A stretch of DNA of 44,039 nucleotides from an uncultured bacterium (GTDB lineage Bacteria; Desulfobacterota; GWC2-55-46), in contig CAJPGC010000026.1 of the NCBI GenBank assembly GCA_905339405.1, forward strand, positions 1-44,039. Reading direction: 5' to 3'. The position numbers and the translations under genes were made by a program. Below the pieces are notes generated by a model. That model was not told the origin of the DNA. It saw only the letters and a program-made list of their open reading frames with translations, and made no database searches. Every line of letters starts with the position of its first letter. Position 1 is the first letter of the stretch. Of this stretch, positions 13,824 through 21,102 are shown piece by piece.

Positions 13824-13851
13824 TTGACACGGCTCGAACTGATTATATAAT
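13824..13851 (+). promoter_or_regulatory. Consensus sigma-70 promoter for DUF1328 gene
   Basis: TTGACA (13824-13829), 16-bp spacer, TATAAT (13846-13851): both hexamers match the consensus exactly. Predicted start is near 13858, leaving a leader of about 68 nt before the ATG at 13926. A high basal transcription level is expected. Confidence 0.85.
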
Positions 13852-13925: not shown

Positions 13926-14093
13926 ATGCTTTCATGGGCAATAACCTTTTTAATCATAGCCATCATAGCCGCGGTCCTCGGTTTCGCTGGAGTCGCAGGG
14001 ACCGCCGCCTGGATAGCGAAGGTGCTTTTCGTGGTCTTCATCATACTTTTCGTCGTCTCGCTCATCGCCGGGAGGGGCAAGCCGGCGGTGTAA
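13926..14093 (+). CDS. DUF1328 (YtjA-type) small membrane protein
   Basis: This 55-aa protein begins [20 protein letters not shown], continues through a [14 protein letters not shown] linker and a second helix ending [13 protein letters not shown]. Two hydrophobic helices with the G-[FV]-x-G-x-A-A/G pattern are the DUF1328 signature. Members are widespread short inner-membrane proteins of unknown function, often stress-associated. AAGGTG lies nine bases before the ATG. It is monocistronic, with a consensus promoter upstream and a terminator right after the stop, which suggests abundant expression. Confidence 0.88.
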
Positions 14094-14119: not shown

Positions 14120-14157
14120 AAAGAGGTTGCACATGATACGTGCGGCCTCTTTTTTTG
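14120..14157 (+). terminator. Intrinsic terminator after DUF1328 gene
   Basis: AAAGAGG-TTGCA pairs with TGC-GGCCTCTTT around a short loop, followed by a run of seven T. It begins 26 bp after the DUF1328 stop. Confidence 0.85.
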
Positions 14158-14315: not shown

Positions 14316-16451
14316 ATGAACACAAGGGATTTCGAGAACGAGATACGGATCCACATAGAGGCAAGGTACCCCATTCTCTGGCTGGTCTCCTTCGAAGAGC
14401 GCAGGGTGGAGCGCATAATCGAGAACCTCTCGGATTCCATGAAGCACAACTTCTGGTCCTGGTCGGTCTCGCGCGGCCTGTACGGCGGAGAGAAGAAAAA
14501 GCGCGAGCCCATCGGCAGGGAGAAGATACTCTCCATAATAGAGGAGAAGATAACCAAAGGGGAGAGCGTCAACAACCTGTTTTTGTTGAAGGATATCGCC
14601 TCCTATTTCAGCTCGCACGAGTTTTTGAGGCGTTTCCGCGACCTTCCCGCGATAATCGAGGAGCGCCATACGGTCAACACGGTCATCATCCTTTCGCCGA
14701 CGCTCGGCGAGATACCTCCTGAGCTCGAAGAGGACATCGTCGTCCTGGAGCTGTCGCTGCCGGACTACGACGAGATAGCCGAGATGGTCTCCAGGACCTA
14801 CGGCCACCTCATCCCCTCGAGCTGGCACGCCTCCACCCGCTCGATACTCTATAAGTCCCTCCAGGGCCTCTCGATGGACAATATCAGGAGGGTCGTGAGA
14901 AAGGCCATAAGCCTCAACAACGGCTTCCTCAACGAGAACTGCATCTCGTACATACAGGACGAGAAGCAGCAGATAATCAAAAAGCAGAAGATACTCGACT
15001 ATTATCCCCACAAGGAGATGATAGAGAACATAGGCGGCCTCTCCGAGATAAAGAAGTGGTTTGTCGAGAGGGAGCAGGTCTTCAGGCTCTCGCGCGACAA
15101 GATAGACACCCTCGGCCTCGATATCCCCAAGGGCCTCCTCCTCATCGGCGTGCCCGGCTCGGGAAAGAGCCTGTGCTGCAAGGCGCTGGCAGGGATATGG
15201 AACCTGCCTCTACTGAGGCTCGACGTGGGACGCCTGTTCGGGTCGACAGTCGGAGAGTCCGAGAAGAACATAAGAAGGTGCATACAGCTTGCCGAAGCCG
15301 TGGCGCCGTGTATACTCTGGATTGACGAGATAGACAAGGCGTTCGGCGGGGTCGGCGGCTACCAGGGAGACTCGGGAACGCAGCTCCGCGTATTCGGCAC
15401 ATTCATCACCTGGCTTCAGGAAAAGGAGCACCCGGTCTTCGTCATATCGACGGCGAACGAGCCCAGGAACCTCCCACCCGAGCTCTGGAGGAAAGGCAGG
15501 TACGACGAGGTCTTCTTCGTCGACCTCCCCAGCCAGGAGGAAAGGGAAGAGATATACAGGATACACCTTGAAAGAAGGGTGCAGAACCTCGCCAGGCTCA
15601 ACATAAAAGAGCTCTCAATGAACAGCCAGGGCTTTACCGGAGCCGAGATTGAGCAGGCCGTGAAGGACGCCGTCGTGACGACCTTCAACAACCTCCACGA
15701 GGACAACGGCGGCAGGAACATCGAGGACGTCATAGAGGGGCTCCTTTCGCTCGACGTCACGCAGGAAGCTCTCCTGAAGTCTATAAGGAACATAACGCCG
15801 CTTTCGGTGCTGAAAAAAGAGGAGATAGAGGAGCTGCGCGCGTGGAGCCACCAGAGGGCGCGCCCGGCCTCCAAGTCCCTTTTCCTCCAGAGGGCCGAGT
15901 CTTTGTCCGAGGCCGAGAAGAGGAACATCTCCATACACGAGGCCGGCCACGCGGTGCTGATGAAGTACCACTTCAACAAGACCCCGGCCTTCATAAGCGT
16001 GGACAACTACAAGAACTACGCCTCCTTCATACCGGTAGACGAGGCGATAAGGACGACTTACACGAAGCGCGACCTTGAAAAAGAGATTGGCGTCATAATG
16101 GGCGGCATGGTCGCCGAGGACGAGATAATCGGCGGCGACTCCAAGACAGTCGGCGCCTCCCACGACCTTATTCAGGCAACGGGCATAGCCAAGAAGATGG
16201 TCGTCGAGTACGGCTTCGGCGAGATGATGAAGAACAAGAGCCTCGTCGTCCTGCAGGACTACGCCCTGACTTCAGGCGGCGAAGTCCTCGAGGACATCCA
16301 GAAAATACTCGACAACGCGAAGGAGAAGTCCTCGAAGATAATCTCGGACAACAAGGACGTGCTCGAAAGCCTCGTCGGAAGGCTGATGAAGGACGTTCTC
16401 ATAAACGGCGAGGGCCTGAATACGTTCTTCAGGGAGAACCCCTTAACTTGA
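14316..16451 (+). CDS. Ycf46-like AAA+ ATPase fused to an FtsH-type M41 peptidase domain
   Basis: The 711-aa protein has three parts. Residues 1-230 resemble the N-terminal region of Ycf46-type AAA proteins. Residues 235-480 form an AAA+ module with Walker A GVPGSGKS (278-285), Walker B CILWIDEID (332-340), a sensor-1-like ISTANE and an RKGRYDE arginine-finger region. Residues 530-700 resemble the M41 peptidase of FtsH: HEAGH (541-545) plus SHDLIQAT, whose Asp617 corresponds to the third zinc ligand. FtsH has N-terminal membrane helices; none are visible here, so this should be a soluble ATP-dependent protease. It opens a cluster with DUF1257, DUF2997, a radical-SAM protein and an Hsp70-like protein; the next start is 11 bp away. 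A proteolytic quality-control role is inferred, not shown. Confidence 0.88.
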   Translation: MNTRDFENEIRIHIEARYPILWLVSFEERRVERIIENLSDSMKHNFWSWSVSRGLYGGEKKKREPIGREKILSIIEEKITKGESVNNLFLLKDIASYFSSHEFLRRFRDLPAIIEERHTVNTVIILSPTLGEIPPELEEDIVVLELSLPDYDEIAEMVSRTYGHLIPSSWHASTRSILYKSLQGLSMDNIRRVVRKAISLNNGFLNENCISYIQDEKQQIIKKQKILDYYPHKEMIENIGGLSEIKKWFVEREQVFRLSRDKIDTLGLDIPKGLLLIGVPGSGKSLCCKALAGIWNLPLLRLDVGRLFGSTVGESEKNIRRCIQLAEAVAPCILWIDEIDKAFGGVGGYQGDSGTQLRVFGTFITWLQEKEHPVFVISTANEPRNLPPELWRKGRYDEVFFVDLPSQEEREEIYRIHLERRVQNLARLNIKELSMNSQGFTGAEIEQAVKDAVVTTFNNLHEDNGGRNIEDVIEGLLSLDVTQEALLKSIRNITPLSVLKKEEIEELRAWSHQRARPASKSLFLQRAESLSEAEKRNISIHEAGHAVLMKYHFNKTPAFISVDNYKNYASFIPVDEAIRTTYTKRDLEKEIGVIMGGMVAEDEIIGGDSKTVGASHDLIQATGIAKKMVVEYGFGEMMKNKSLVVLQDYALTSGGEVLEDIQKILDNAKEKSSKIISDNKDVLESLVGRLMKDVLINGEGLNTFFRENPLT

Positions 16452-16461
16452 GGAGGCGGTC

Positions 16462-16800
16462 ATGTCTTTCTACACGGTCATAAAGACCGAGCTGTCCAGC
16501 AGGAAGTACCTCATATGCGCCCTCGAGGAGCTGAAGAAGAGGGGCGAGATAACGAGCTTCGTCGCAAACGAGCGCAAGGACACTGTCGAGATAGACAGGG
16601 ACGGCGACATAATCAACGTCATAAAGGAGAAGACCGGGAGCTACCAGCTCGGCGGCGACAACAGGGTCGTCGGCAAGTTCTCGAACAGGTTGAAGCAGAT
16701 ATACGCTTACGAGTCCATAAAGGACAACTTGCCGCTGGACTTCGAGATCGCTAGCGAACAGGAGACAGAGGGCGAGATCCAGATTCTTCTGAAGGGGTAG
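16462..16800 (+). CDS. DUF1257 (Ycf35-like) protein
   Basis: The 112-aa product begins MSFYTVIKTELSSRKYLICA, close to the opening of DUF1257/Ycf35 proteins, conserved in cyanobacteria and red-lineage plastids and scattered in other bacteria. Function is unknown. It is small, soluble, alternates helices and strands, and has one Cys, so it is unlikely to bind a cluster alone. GAGGAGG lies before the ATG, and it follows the AAA-protease gene by 10 bp. Family knowledge that DUF1257 genes often neighbour DUF2997 and Ycf46-like ATPase genes matches this context. An adaptor or substrate role for the ATPase is conceivable but unproven. Confidence 0.82.
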   Translation: MSFYTVIKTELSSRKYLICALEELKKRGEITSFVANERKDTVEIDRDGDIINVIKEKTGSYQLGGDNRVVGKFSNRLKQIYAYESIKDNLPLDFEIASEQETEGEIQILLKG

Positions 16801-16823
16801 GACTGAAAAACACCAATTTGGTT

Positions 16824-16932
16824 CAGGCTGCTCAAAAAGGCCCGGATTACAGGAGTCGAGGCGCGGGGAAGCAGTACGCCGCAGTGAACTCGCGCTAAAG
16901 ACGACAACGAAGACGGAACTTGAGGCAGCCTG
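16824..16932. repeat. Palindromic mini-element with CAGGCTGC ends
   Basis: The 109-bp segment between the DUF1257 and DUF2997 genes starts CAGGCTGCTCAA (16824-16835) and ends TTGAGGCAGCCTG (16920-16932), imperfect terminal inverted repeats. Its interior contains GCAGTACGCCGC. It carries no open frame. It resembles a non-autonomous interspersed repeat (REP or MITE type). The DUF2997 ribosome-binding site AGGAGG starts a few bases after it. Confidence 0.6.
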
Positions 16933-16945
16933 TCAGGAGGCTCCG

Positions 16946-17131
16946 ATGGACAGGCAGATAAAGATACGGATTACCCCGGACGGGAAGGTCGAGATAGACT
17001 CCAGCGTCTATAAAGACTGCAAGGAGGTCGCCCGCCACCTGACTAAGAACCTCGGCCAGATAGAAAGTTTCTCCGAGAAGGACGAGGTGCTGGGCTCCGA
17101 GGTCGCCGTAAAGCTGGAGACAGGCGATTAG
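16946..17131 (+). CDS. DUF2997 small protein
   Basis: This 61-aa protein reads MDRQIKIRITPDGKVEID at its start, then a helix with KDCKEVARHLTKNLG and an acidic C-terminus. The beta-hairpin I-x-I-x-PDG-x-V-x-I pattern followed by a Cys-containing helix is the DUF2997 signature. Family function is unknown; members are recurrent neighbours of DUF1257. Length is normal. AGGAGG sits nine bases before the ATG. The palindromic element directly upstream separates it from DUF1257, yet the shared direction implies one operon. Confidence 0.75.
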   Translation: MDRQIKIRITPDGKVEIDSSVYKDCKEVARHLTKNLGQIESFSEKDEVLGSEVAVKLETGD

Positions 17132-17199
17132 CGCCTCTCGGTAAAAGCCTCTCAGTCGGCCCGTGACGCTTTCGCGCGTCCCTGGGTTCGGAGGCCTCC

Positions 17200-17751
17200 A
17201 TGATAGATATCAACGTACACGCCGTGATTGGCCGCTCCAGGGTCAACGGCCCGGGGACAAGGCTCGTCATCTTCTTTCAGGGCTGCGCCAGGGCCTGCGA
17301 AGGGTGCTTCAACCCTGATACGCACTCCTTCGATGAAAAGGAGCGCATGACACCGGAGGCCCTTTTCGGGAAGTACCTTTCAAAGGGCGTGGAGGGCATA
17401 ACCGTGAGCGGCGGCGAGCCGTTCATGCAGCCCGCGGGGCTTTTAAGGCTCTTGGAGCTTTCCGCTGCAAGCGGGCTTACGAACCTCGTGTATACCGGAT
17501 TTACGCTCGAGGAGATATTGAAAGACCAGCCGATGGCCAGGTGCCTCGAATTCATTGACGTGCTCGTGGACGGGCCGTTCGAGCTCAAGATGGCCGAGCC
17601 CACGCTCCTTGCCAGGGGTTCGACGAACCAGAGGATACACCTCCTCACGCCGAGGTACTCCCTCGACGACCTCTATATGCCGGGCAAGGCAGAGGTGATA
17701 ATCGGCCCCGAGGGCGACGTAAGGAAGACAGGCTTCAGCAGCCTGGGCTGA
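17200..17751 (+). CDS. NrdG-like radical-SAM 4Fe-4S protein
   Basis: The 183-aa protein carries FFQGCARACEGCFNPDTH with Cys29, Cys33 and Cys36 in the radical-SAM CxxxCxxC spacing, then VSGGEPFMQ, the GGE SAM-binding motif. Its size and N-terminus match the minimal activating-enzyme type (NrdG/Fer4_12). NrdG normally makes a glycyl radical on NrdD, but no glycyl-radical enzyme is encoded nearby. The gene sits inside the AAA/DUF1257/DUF2997/Hsp70 cluster, which suggests a different partner. GGAGG is five bases before the ATG, and the Hsp70-like gene follows 14 bp later. It could modify a protein or act only as an Fe-S protein; the target is unknown. Confidence 0.85.
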   Translation: MIDINVHAVIGRSRVNGPGTRLVIFFQGCARACEGCFNPDTHSFDEKERMTPEALFGKYLSKGVEGITVSGGEPFMQPAGLLRLLELSAASGLTNLVYTGFTLEEILKDQPMARCLEFIDVLVDGPFELKMAEPTLLARGSTNQRIHLLTPRYSLDDLYMPGKAEVIIGPEGDVRKTGFSSLG

Positions 17752-17765
17752 TGTTCCGGCACTGA

Positions 17766-20453
17766 ATGACAATAACGGGTTTTCATGCCCGGATGACGGT
17801 TTTTGAGATGAGTATAGAGATATGCAGGCTGCATCTTCAGTCCGCAAGGGACACCGAAGACAATAAAGCCATATGGCCGCTCCTCATAAGGGCCGCCAGG
17901 GAATTGCCGAAGACGCCTGAGGCGCTCGAGCTCTTCAGGGCCGGTTTCGAGCTACTTGAAAAGATAGAAGACCCGGAAGGCCGCAAGCTCGCCCTCCTCG
18001 AGTACACGAAGGAGATACCTTCCGGCCCCGCTTTCGTCCCGCTTTATCTGAAGGCGTCAGAGGCTGCCATCTTCGCGGCCGACTCTCTCGACGAGAGCTA
18101 CAGGCGCATCGTCGAGCTCACGAGGATAGCCGAGGAGATACCAAAGGGCCCCGAGTTCGTCGAGCTGCGCGTCCTCGCCTGGCGTCTGGCCCTGGGCCTG
18201 CCTGACAGGCCGAAGTTCGCTTCTTCTTCCATCGAAAAAATAGCCACGGAGCTTCCTAAGTCGAGCGACATCGGCTTTTTCTCCCGCTACACGCTCATGG
18301 GGATCGCGAGGATGGCCCCGAAGGACGGCCCGTTCGCGAAAGTCTACAGGGAAGCCGTAGAGCTCGCCATGCAGGCCGCCGCAACGATAAGCGAGCCGTA
18401 CTACAGGAGGTACGCCAGCCTCAGCATAAGCGCCGAGCTGCCGAAGACCCCCGAGTTCGCCGACCTTTACCTGAAATCCCTCCAGGACGTCTACAAGTAC
18501 ACCCTCGAGATGAAAGACGTCTTCGCAAGGGAGTTCGGCCTCCTTGAGCTCCTGGGCCGAATCCCGAAGTCCCGCGAGTTCTTCTCCCTCCTCCAGCAGG
18601 TCCTCGAAGAGTGTCTGACGTTCTTCACCGTCAGGAAATGGATGGAGGACGTCGAGGTCTTCGACGTCGTCGACTACATACTTTCGGCCGAAGACCACAG
18701 CATGACCGACTCGAAGAAGAACAGGTGCCTGCGCGAGAAGTACTCGAAGATACTCGCCTCCGAGGTCGAAAAATTCGGCAATGAGATACACGACACGCGC
18801 TTCATCGAGACCCTGAAGCCGTATACGCACGTATGGGTGCAGCCCAAGAACCTGCGCGAGGCGGTCAAGAAGGTCGTCGACAGGCTCGAGGCGCTCAAAG
18901 ACACGTTCCATGGGGCTGAAGTGCAAAGGCCCGTGTTCGTCTCCGAGTTCCACGCCGACGCCAATGGTAACATGGTCCGCAAAAAAGACCTCCAGCCCTC
19001 GGAGTGCATCTCAATAGACCTGGGCGCGACCAATACCGTGGTCATGAGGAAGAAGGGGTCTGAAGCGCCGGACTTTTTGCATCTCGGCGCGATAGCGAGG
19101 CAGTACGAGGGCGTCCTCATAATCCCGACGCTCCTCAGCGCCGATACCAACAACATAGGCGCGGAGGCCGGGGACAACCCTGTGTCTAACATAAAGCAGA
19201 TGCTCCTGGAGGCCAACCCCAAAGGCAGGGAGCACATGGAGAGGTTCATAAGGCTTCTCTTCCAGCACCTCCAGAAAGTCACGGTAACACCCGGCTGGCT
19301 CAGGATAAAGCCCAAGAGCTCGGCCGATTATATCTATATAACAGTGCCGGTCGGCTACCAGGACTATACTTCCTCTATCAGGGAGATAACGAACAAGGTG
19401 ATGAAGGGCAACAGGGTGGAATTGATAGAGGAGCCCCTGGCCGCAGCCGTCGGCTACCAGGTCGTCGACCAGAGGGACAAGGTCATCATGGTCATCGACT
19501 TCGGCGGGTCGACCCTCAACACCATGCTGCTGCGCCTAAACCTCAACGAGGTCCATGTAGTGGCCAAGCCCGAGCGGGCGCAGATGCTAGGAGGCCATGA
19601 CGTGGACGTATGGCTCGCCGAATACCTCGCGGAAAAGGCCGAGACGCACGGGACGGTCCCCTACAGCCTGCTCGTGGCGGCCGAAGAGCTCAAGATAAGG
19701 CTCTCCGAAAGGAAGGAGGCCGCCTTTGTCTGGGAGGGCCGCGAGATATGCAGGGTGACGAGGGACGAGTTCGAGCAGGTCCTCGACGGGCACGAGTTCT
19801 ACAAGACGGTCGACAGGACCATCATAAACGTCCTCAAGAGGGCCGAGAAGGTAGGCCTCAAGAAGGACAGGATAGAAGCCATACTCATGACCGGCGGCTC
19901 TTCGCAGATACCGTCGTTCAAGGACAAGGTAGGGCACATATTCCCGGAGCTCAGGGCCAGGAACCAGATATACGACCACAGCCCGCTTACTGCGGTCGGC
20001 CTCGGGGCCGCCCTGTACGGCACGAGAGACATAACCGACAGGCACATCGCCGTCGCCTACGCCATGCGGTACGCCCCGTCTGAGCAGGACTCCGCCCATT
20101 CGTATTCCATCGTCCTTGAAAAAGGCGAACAGCTTCCGCTGGAGAAGTCTTTCAAGCTTAGGCCCGCAAGGAAGCTCGGCGTCCAGACCGACATCACGAT
20201 AGAGCTCTTCGAGGTGCCGGAGAACCTCCTGACCCGCAGGTGGGTCTCGGAGGAAGGCATAGAGTTCCTGAAGCAGGAGATGAAAGAGGCGGCGGACCTG
20301 AGCTTGAGCGGGTTGAAGCCGGTGACGGTCAAGATGGCGCACGAGGACGACGAGGAAGTGCTCGTCACCTTCTGCGTGGACCAGGCCGGGTCTTTGAGCC
20401 TTAAGTACGGCCCCGAGGCCAAAGCGGTTGACACTGGGCTGAGGCTCCAGTAA
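17766..20453 (+). CDS. Large Hsp70-like protein with N-terminal helical repeats
   Basis: The protein has up to 895 aa. Residues 45-280 contain seven copies of an [EIL]PK-x-PEF-like motif (near 46, 83, 124, 162, 183, 224, 265), mostly 37-41 residues apart, giving an all-helical repeat domain. Residues 414-740 form an actin/Hsp70 nucleotide-binding domain: DLGATNT (418-424), EEPLAAAVGY (555-564), DFGGST (578-583) and MTGGSSQIP (708-716). The last 150 residues resemble a short beta-rich substrate domain, without the DnaK lid. It is therefore not DnaK. In-frame starts also exist at 17793 and 17808; none has a strong ribosome-binding site. It ends the cluster before a terminator. A chaperone or sensor role feeding the AAA-protease is inferred. 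Confidence 0.85.
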   Translation: MTITGFHARMTVFEMSIEICRLHLQSARDTEDNKAIWPLLIRAARELPKTPEALELFRAGFELLEKIEDPEGRKLALLEYTKEIPSGPAFVPLYLKASEAAIFAADSLDESYRRIVELTRIAEEIPKGPEFVELRVLAWRLALGLPDRPKFASSSIEKIATELPKSSDIGFFSRYTLMGIARMAPKDGPFAKVYREAVELAMQAAATISEPYYRRYASLSISAELPKTPEFADLYLKSLQDVYKYTLEMKDVFAREFGLLELLGRIPKSREFFSLLQQVLEECLTFFTVRKWMEDVEVFDVVDYILSAEDHSMTDSKKNRCLREKYSKILASEVEKFGNEIHDTRFIETLKPYTHVWVQPKNLREAVKKVVDRLEALKDTFHGAEVQRPVFVSEFHADANGNMVRKKDLQPSECISIDLGATNTVVMRKKGSEAPDFLHLGAIARQYEGVLIIPTLLSADTNNIGAEAGDNPVSNIKQMLLEANPKGREHMERFIRLLFQHLQKVTVTPGWLRIKPKSSADYIYITVPVGYQDYTSSIREITNKVMKGNRVELIEEPLAAAVGYQVVDQRDKVIMVIDFGGSTLNTMLLRLNLNEVHVVAKPERAQMLGGHDVDVWLAEYLAEKAETHGTVPYSLLVAAEELKIRLSERKEAAFVWEGREICRVTRDEFEQVLDGHEFYKTVDRTIINVLKRAEKVGLKKDRIEAILMTGGSSQIPSFKDKVGHIFPELRARNQIYDHSPLTAVGLGAALYGTRDITDRHIAVAYAMRYAPSEQDSAHSYSIVLEKGEQLPLEKSFKLRPARKLGVQTDITIELFEVPENLLTRRWVSEEGIEFLKQEMKEAADLSLSGLKPVTVKMAHEDDEEVLVTFCVDQAGSLSLKYGPEAKAVDTGLRLQ

Positions 20454-20463
20454 AGAATTCCAT

Positions 20464-20491
20464 AAAAGCCCTTGATTTTCAAGGGCTTTTT
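20464..20491 (+). terminator. Intrinsic terminator ending the AAA/Hsp70 operon
   Basis: AAAAGCCCTTGA and TCAAGGGCTTTT form a perfect 12-bp stem with a 3-nt loop, followed by T-rich sequence, 10 bp after the Hsp70-like stop. It defines the 3' end of the cluster started at 14316. Confidence 0.92.
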
Positions 20492-20667: not shown

Positions 20668-21102
20668 ATGAGCAGTAGTGCAGTCATTGAAAAAGGTATC
20701 GGGTTCGCGCGCGAAGGGGAGTTCGAACAGGCGATAAAGGTCTTCGACCAGGACCTGTGCTTCACGCAGCACCCGACGGCGATGTCGTATTACGCCGTCT
20801 GCCTGGCTAACGTCGAGGGGAACTTCGACAAGGCCATTTCGCTTTGCCTGATGGCCGCTGAAAAGGAGTTCTACAACCCTGAAATTTACCTCAACCTCGG
20901 CAGGATATTCCTCCTGAACGGCCAGAAGGCCGTAGCCGTGAGGGCGTTCAGGAAGGGGCTCAAGTTCGACAACGGCAACTTCGGCCTCTTGAGCGAGATG
21001 AGGAAGCTCGGCGTGAGGAGAAAGCCGGTAATAGGCTTCCTCCAGAGGACGAACCCGGTAAATAAATTCCTCGGGATCATCGCTGACAGGATGGTCGTCT
21101 GA
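20668..21102 (+). CDS. Small TPR protein
   Basis: The 144-aa protein is built of TPR-like helical pairs: EKGIGFAREGEFEQAIKVFD, then YYAVCLANVEGNFDKAISL and IYLNLGRIFLLNGQKAVAVR AFRKGL. It has no signal peptide or membrane helix. The C-terminus is basic (RRKPVIGFLQR). A strong AGGAGG precedes the start. It lies downstream of the terminator of the Hsp70-like gene and is bracketed by its own terminator, so it is a separate unit, though on the same strand as the cluster. A co-chaperone-like link to the Hsp70-like protein is possible but only by proximity. Confidence 0.8.
   Translation: MSSSAVIEKGIGFAREGEFEQAIKVFDQDLCFTQHPTAMSYYAVCLANVEGNFDKAISLCLMAAEKEFYNPEIYLNLGRIFLLNGQKAVAVRAFRKGLKFDNGNFGLLSEMRKLGVRRKPVIGFLQRTNPVNKFLGIIADRMVV

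Follow-up and report, generated by a model that had tools for sequence, protein, structure and literature searches.

The region from 14316 to 20453 of the window (the whole 44,039-nucleotide stretch of DNA analysed here) holds five genes that encode a Ycf46-type AAA+ ATPase fused to an M41 zinc peptidase, relatives of Ycf35 and DUF2997, an activase-type radical-SAM protein and a protein that joins an alpha-solenoid to an Hsp70-like ATPase. With modest confidence, we read the products as a soluble AAA+ machine that would remodel or degrade a client protein, served by small adaptors and a redox-linked maturase. Sequence comparison establishes the gene identities, the catalytic motifs, the single fusion and the recurrent genomic association of the genes. 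The initial annotation had put the set forward as a candidate undescribed system, and we found no description of it in the open literature (5.39 million papers, with subscription papers mostly outside the scope of the search), where DUF1257 or DUF2997 is mentioned in three papers. The features are as follows.

14120–14152, + strand: intrinsic-terminator-like hairpin upstream of the cluster, closing the DUF1328 unit
14316–16451, + strand: gene 1, Ycf46-type AAA+ ATPase/M41 zinc peptidase fusion, 711 aa, soluble
14316–14990, + strand: Ycf46 N-terminal domain of gene 1 (residues 1–225), probably an AAA domain that has degenerated and lacks Walker A
14991–15695, + strand: active AAA+ domain of gene 1 (Walker A K284, Walker B D337/E338, R392/R395, pore position T311)
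15903–16418, + strand: M41 peptidase domain of gene 1 (residues 530–701; HEAGH 541–545, D617 invariant)
16462–16800, + strand: gene 2, DUF1257/Ycf35-like small protein, 112 aa, predicted helix-grip (TBP-like) fold
16946–17131, + strand: gene 3, DUF2997 protein, 61 aa, invariant Cys25
17200–17751, + strand: gene 4, NrdG/PflA-activase-type radical-SAM protein, 183 aa, CxxxCxxC and GGEP
17766–20453, + strand: gene 5, alpha-solenoid plus Hsp70-like ATPase, 895 aa as the annotated ORF
17808–18902, + strand: N-terminal helical-repeat (alpha-solenoid) part of gene 5, 365 residues, helices in the model
18996–20045, + strand: Hsp70 nucleotide-binding domain of gene 5, from the model alignment
20052–20450, + strand: C-terminal beta domain of gene 5, which aligns with the beta domain that binds substrate in Hsp70; the alpha lid is absent
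20464–20490, + strand: intrinsic terminator downstream, closing the five-gene unit
20668–21102, + strand: TPR protein, a separate unit and a conserved neighbour in the family

As had been described, the five open reading frames run in one direction and end at a terminator. The gaps between them are 10, 145, 68 and 14 bp, and a hairpin scan found no intrinsic terminator on the + strand inside the cluster. The true start of gene 5 is probably at 17793 or 17808. Upstream, a gene for a small DUF1328 membrane protein (13926–14093) carries its own terminator and is a conserved neighbour across the family. A perfect (12/12) sigma-70 promoter match at 13824–13851 does not serve the cluster because it precedes this DUF1328 gene. 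The TPR gene, a possible sixth member of the cluster, lies downstream in most family members and is on the opposite strand in locus L035; planctomycete clusters contain a TPR gene as well.

Co-occurrence of the families in other genomes, the check that the initial annotation had set beforehand, was borne out. Gene 1 occurs in 46 of the 63 class genomes, at 70–95% identity and with conserved neighbours. Of the 27 loci with gene 1 in our collection, 6 are cut by a contig end; the other 21, on contigs long enough to be complete, all carry the complete set in one order and on one strand, so that the gene order is not due to chance. Elsewhere in the same phylum, DUF1257 was found in 14 of 198 genomes, at 17 loci, where Ycf46 adjoins it at 16, DUF2997 at 16 and Hsp70, next to a HEAT-repeat gene, at 8. 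Outside the class, the Ycf46–Ycf35–DUF2997 core lacks the protease. On the planctomycete side (149 genomes from the phylum of the Phycisphaerales genome G263), 29 DUF2997 loci were found, 27 with DUF1257 beside DUF2997 and 22 with Ycf46 within 1.5 kb. A radical-SAM gene like gene 4 lies by DUF2997 in 5 of these 29, and in six other planctomycete loci a different type of radical-SAM gene directly precedes Ycf46.

The cyanobacterial arrangement is related. Eleven loci pair DUF2997 with Ycf35, and those among them that were read gene by gene have a 4Fe-4S ferredoxin gene next; Ycf46 is elsewhere in those genomes, apart from Ycf35 and DUF2997 in most that we saw, a point against our reading of the cluster. 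Like our cluster, the published DUF2997–ycf35–fed7 cluster (PMC4284462) has Ycf35 and DUF2997 adjacent and accompanied by an Fe-S protein, but ferredoxin replaces the radical-SAM protein, and neither AAA nor Hsp70 genes belong to it. As judged from these neighbourhoods, the recurring unit is Ycf46, Ycf35 and DUF2997, accompanied by an Fe-S partner (ferredoxin or a radical-SAM protein) and in many cases by chaperone-like genes in a pair. A divergent second branch of Ycf46 (L203–L207) also occurs with DUF1257, mostly with DUF2997, and with a recurrent uncharacterised protein of ~315 aa; read by eye, the neighbours of some of these loci are probably genes for restriction-modification or for RecB-like nucleases.

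Gene 1 matches AAA (2e-30) and Peptidase_M41 (PF01434; 5e-23) in Pfam. When its ortholog alignment was scanned against 84,980 species genomes, the matches fell into two tiers. The first consists of M41-bearing orthologs with 70–88% identity. The second, with 38–41% identity over residues 1 to about 525, comes from cyanobacteria, Planctomycetota, Sumerlaeota/BRC1 and one Deferrisomatales MAG, and these proteins end shortly past the AAA domain. The cyanobacterial matches of this length we take to be Ycf46. The relationship to Ycf46 and Ycf35 and the added protease in a non-photosynthetic bacterium, both anticipated by the initial annotation, thus hold up, and the alignment shows gene 1 to be Ycf46 with a protease added. 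The fused proteins come together as a single clade with 100/100 support in an IQ-TREE tree. The sole row in this clade that appears unfused, L064, is truncated by a contig end, and a single fusion is therefore the simplest account. Four rows titled Nitrospirae (L057, L059, L063 and L065) also carry the fusion and are nested inside the deltaproteobacterial clade, which suggests lateral transfer or misnamed MAGs. In the Sumerlaeota/BRC1 loci L069, L070 and L109, a gene of the peptide-deformylase family (by Pfam in L069 and L109, by similarity in L070) precedes that for Ycf46; the L069 and L109 genomes have no DUF2997 match.

The alignment shows no variation in the Walker A and B motifs, the two arginines, HEAGH or D617, which is the third zinc ligand; for the M41 site this holds in 21 of 21 fused rows. 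Residues 86–201 align with the Walker-B/sensor/lid half of an AAA domain in a profile comparison (E 5e-4, probability 30%), and the N-domain may therefore be a degenerate AAA domain. At the pore-loop-1 position, every fused protein has threonine (T311), unfused Ycf46 has L or F, and VAT has W/Y. A pore-loop aromatic is the residue normally used for threading; with an invariant threonine in its place, classical threading may be weak. Gene 1 resembles Ycf46 (Synechocystis slr0374; plastid ycf46) in its N-domain and AAA domain over residues 1–525 (40–42% identity) and in its genomic link to Ycf35 and DUF2997, but differs in the M41 fusion, in the pore residue and in its clustering with radical-SAM and Hsp70 genes. 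With FtsH it shares an AAA domain followed by M41 with HEXXH and an Asp ligand; unlike FtsH, it has the Ycf46 N-domain, no membrane anchor and an AAA domain nearer to that of Ycf46, and it scores 176.5 bits against the 600-bit cut-off of the FtsH equivalog TIGR01241. We set aside the PADLOC matches of the cluster as generic AAA or viperin similarity, the related NCBIfam models scoring far under their cut-offs.

Genes 2 and 3 are identified through their orthologs. For gene 2, Pfam gives no direct match to DUF1257. A profile built from its orthologs does, however, pick up PF06868 (DUF1257) proteins in other families, at about 2e-4 to 6e-7, and these all adjoin a Ycf46 gene, the same syntenic place. 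On this profile evidence, gene 2 is a divergent Ycf35. Its AlphaFold model is a small helix-grip domain (pLDDT 85.6) with no significant match in the PDB (best Foldseek E 0.02; VIA Z 8.4 to KA1). The DUF1257 fold was dropped as a clue to function, being only a common helix-grip arrangement. Gene 3 matches DUF2997 (PF11211) at 1.4e-4 and 22.1 bits, just under the 24.1 cut-off, and its ortholog profile joins known DUF2997 members. One cysteine, C25 in gene 3, is invariant in all 58 DUF2997 sequences compared, the cyanobacterial ones included. Together with the Pfam matches of the other genes, these profiles uphold the five gene identities first proposed.

Gene 5, at 44–66% identity, is the least conserved of the five. 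Its N-terminal part consists of internal repeats (profile E 4e-24). The remainder matches HSP70 (PF00012; 3e-19), and its ATPase domain superimposes on DnaK/BiP with Z 33 and rmsd 2.6 over 320 residues; confidence in the whole model is moderate (pTM 0.49), and the relative placement of its parts is not trustworthy. With DnaK, HscA and BiP it shares the Hsp70 nucleotide-binding domain and a beta region like that of the substrate domain, but it adds the N-terminal solenoid and lacks the alpha lid, no DnaJ or GrpE is encoded among the five genes, and its scores fall far below the DnaK and HscA equivalogs (60.8 versus 822 and 86.3 versus 708 bits). In L132, L133, L135–L137, L139, L140 and L074, separate HEAT-repeat and Hsp70-like genes are paired with Ycf46–DUF1257–DUF2997, a parallel to the fusion in gene 5. 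Homology between the solenoid and these HEAT proteins was rejected for want of a profile match, which leaves an analogous pairing only.

The low conservation of gene 5 bears on one alternative, that two units stand together by chance, namely a Ycf46–Ycf35–DUF2997–radical-SAM unit and an independent Hsp70. The absence of Hsp70 beside many planctomycete and cyanobacterial cores points the same way. Against this, Hsp70-like genes adjoin the core at the eight same-phylum loci mentioned above and in L074, in two different gene orders, and gene 5 is kept in every contig-complete relative. We consider a chance pairing unlikely.

A somewhat smaller chance attaches to the cluster being a biological-conflict system, anti-phage or abortive, comparable to IetAS or to ternary systems of the FtsH type, with an AAA-protease that would be unleashed on infection. 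The AAA domain of gene 1 does resemble that of IetA/IteA (98–105 bits), and the FtsH-containing MoxR–vWA ternary systems (PMC7159879) likewise combine a double AAA protein, its first domain dead, with a radical-SAM protein. Further, some DUF2997–DUF1257–radical-SAM sets on the planctomycete side adjoin an MkoA-like helicase, one of them also a PLD-like gene. But the IteA score is 98.2 against a cut-off of 510 bits, and IetAS needs a subtilisin partner, whereas the only protease among the five genes is the M41 fusion. The ternary systems need MoxR and vWA, neither of which occurs among the five genes or the neighbours scanned with Pfam at 4.9–9.3, 9.5–12.9 and 21–28 kb, and these flanking genes are housekeeping genes. 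Finally, the cluster behaves as core genome within the class, with a conservation like that of housekeeping genes. In L199 (3–6563) and L200 (1–6852), from two genomes of the planctomycete-side sample, an MkoA-like SF1 helicase (PADLOC 1e-77 and 7e-34) lies upstream of DUF2997(–DUF1257)–radical-SAM sets, and L199 also encodes PLD-like and wHTH-PRTase-associated proteins; these two sets are possibly a conflict-system variant.

A remodelase of carbon metabolism, comparable to Rubisco activase, is very improbable. It is suggested by the lowered activity of the carbonic anhydrase EcaB when Ycf46 is inactivated in Synechocystis (PMC7496141), the only reported Ycf46 phenotype that we found and one that gives no pointer to Fe-S. 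The large subunit of Rubisco and CdhC-type acetyl-CoA synthase are absent from all 63 class genomes, by which Rubisco as the client is largely refuted and acetyl-CoA synthase is likewise rejected.

Gene 4 matches Fer4_12 (4e-33), with CxxxCxxC and GGEP invariant and an activase-type GPGxR...CxxxCxxC motif, and the sequences closest to it are NrdG and the PFL-activating enzyme. It shares with these activases the radical-SAM fold and the activase motif, but differs in having no glycyl-radical partner in the source genome. That it is an ordinary activase of a glycyl-radical enzyme or class III ribonucleotide reductase, which the cluster would service, is hardly credible and largely refuted: its score against the NrdG equivalog TIGR02491 comes near the cut-off (117.7 versus 126.1 bits), but the partner is essentially absent, since Gly_radical (PF01228) is missing from 38 of 40 relatives and from the source genome, NRDD exceeds its cut-off in only 1 of the 40, the weak NRDD match in the source genome is a B12-dependent (class II) NrdJ, no NrdD was recognised by length and eye beside the homologues in L198–L202, and haem-copper oxidase (COX1-family) genes match in 63 of 63 class genomes. 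With its usual targets missing, gene 4 is an orphan activase-type enzyme, and its presence in bacteria that respire and have no recognisable glycyl-radical enzyme implies a target of an undescribed kind. A link of the cluster to oxygen use was also considered and dropped, as COX1-family genes in every genome of the class leave no contrast.

We thus return to the client-remodelling and degradation machine. Its engine would be the Ycf46-type ATPase, predicted to form a ring, with the M41 domain acquired in this lineage; ring formation, ATP-driven unfolding, proteolysis and chaperone action would all be expected by analogy with the respective families. Ycf35/DUF1257 and DUF2997, as recurrent small partners, are most likely adaptors or client-recognition subunits, although any adaptor role is a guess. 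The solenoid–Hsp70 protein may bind the client or hand it over. If the pore threonine weakens threading, clients may need to be delivered unfolded, and we guess that this is a plausible job for an Hsp70-like protein. The radical-SAM protein could respond to iron or redox state by modifying or licensing a partner, its best candidate targets, again guesses, being the client or DUF2997 with its invariant cysteine. The initial annotation had supposed that the machine recognises and holds one particular client, perhaps an Fe-S or redox protein, and then degrades or remodels it. We only infer as much, the nature of the client being guesswork; no client gene is encoded near the cluster. The recurring Fe-S partner, hints in the literature and the absence of Rubisco and CdhC lead us to favour a redox- or iron-linked remodelling module whose client is, in this lineage, degraded. 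A narrower form of this model, in which the radical-SAM protein installs a modification on DUF2997 (at Cys25) or on Ycf35 and so creates a redox-controlled adaptor that gates the Ycf46-based soluble protease, is speculative, with a small but real chance of being right. Such a system would regulate proteolysis through a radical-modified adaptor and would be related to ycf35 and ycf46, two unexplained genes of plastids.

Cyanobacteria keep ycf46, ycf35 and DUF2997, and many algal plastids keep ycf46 and ycf35. That the three form a compact unit in bacteria which do not photosynthesise, with a protease fused to Ycf46 and with radical-SAM, HEAT and Hsp70 partners, points to a joint role in protein remodelling rather than in photosynthesis as such. 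The cluster makes the function of ycf35 and ycf46 testable; a protease-dead mutant and substrate traps offer handles on the client. In other work, SigD was found to control ycf35 and fed7 (PMC8875361), and many plastids of freshwater red algae lack both ycf35 and ycf46, along with ycf34 and the heme oxygenase gene pbsA (PMC5940233).
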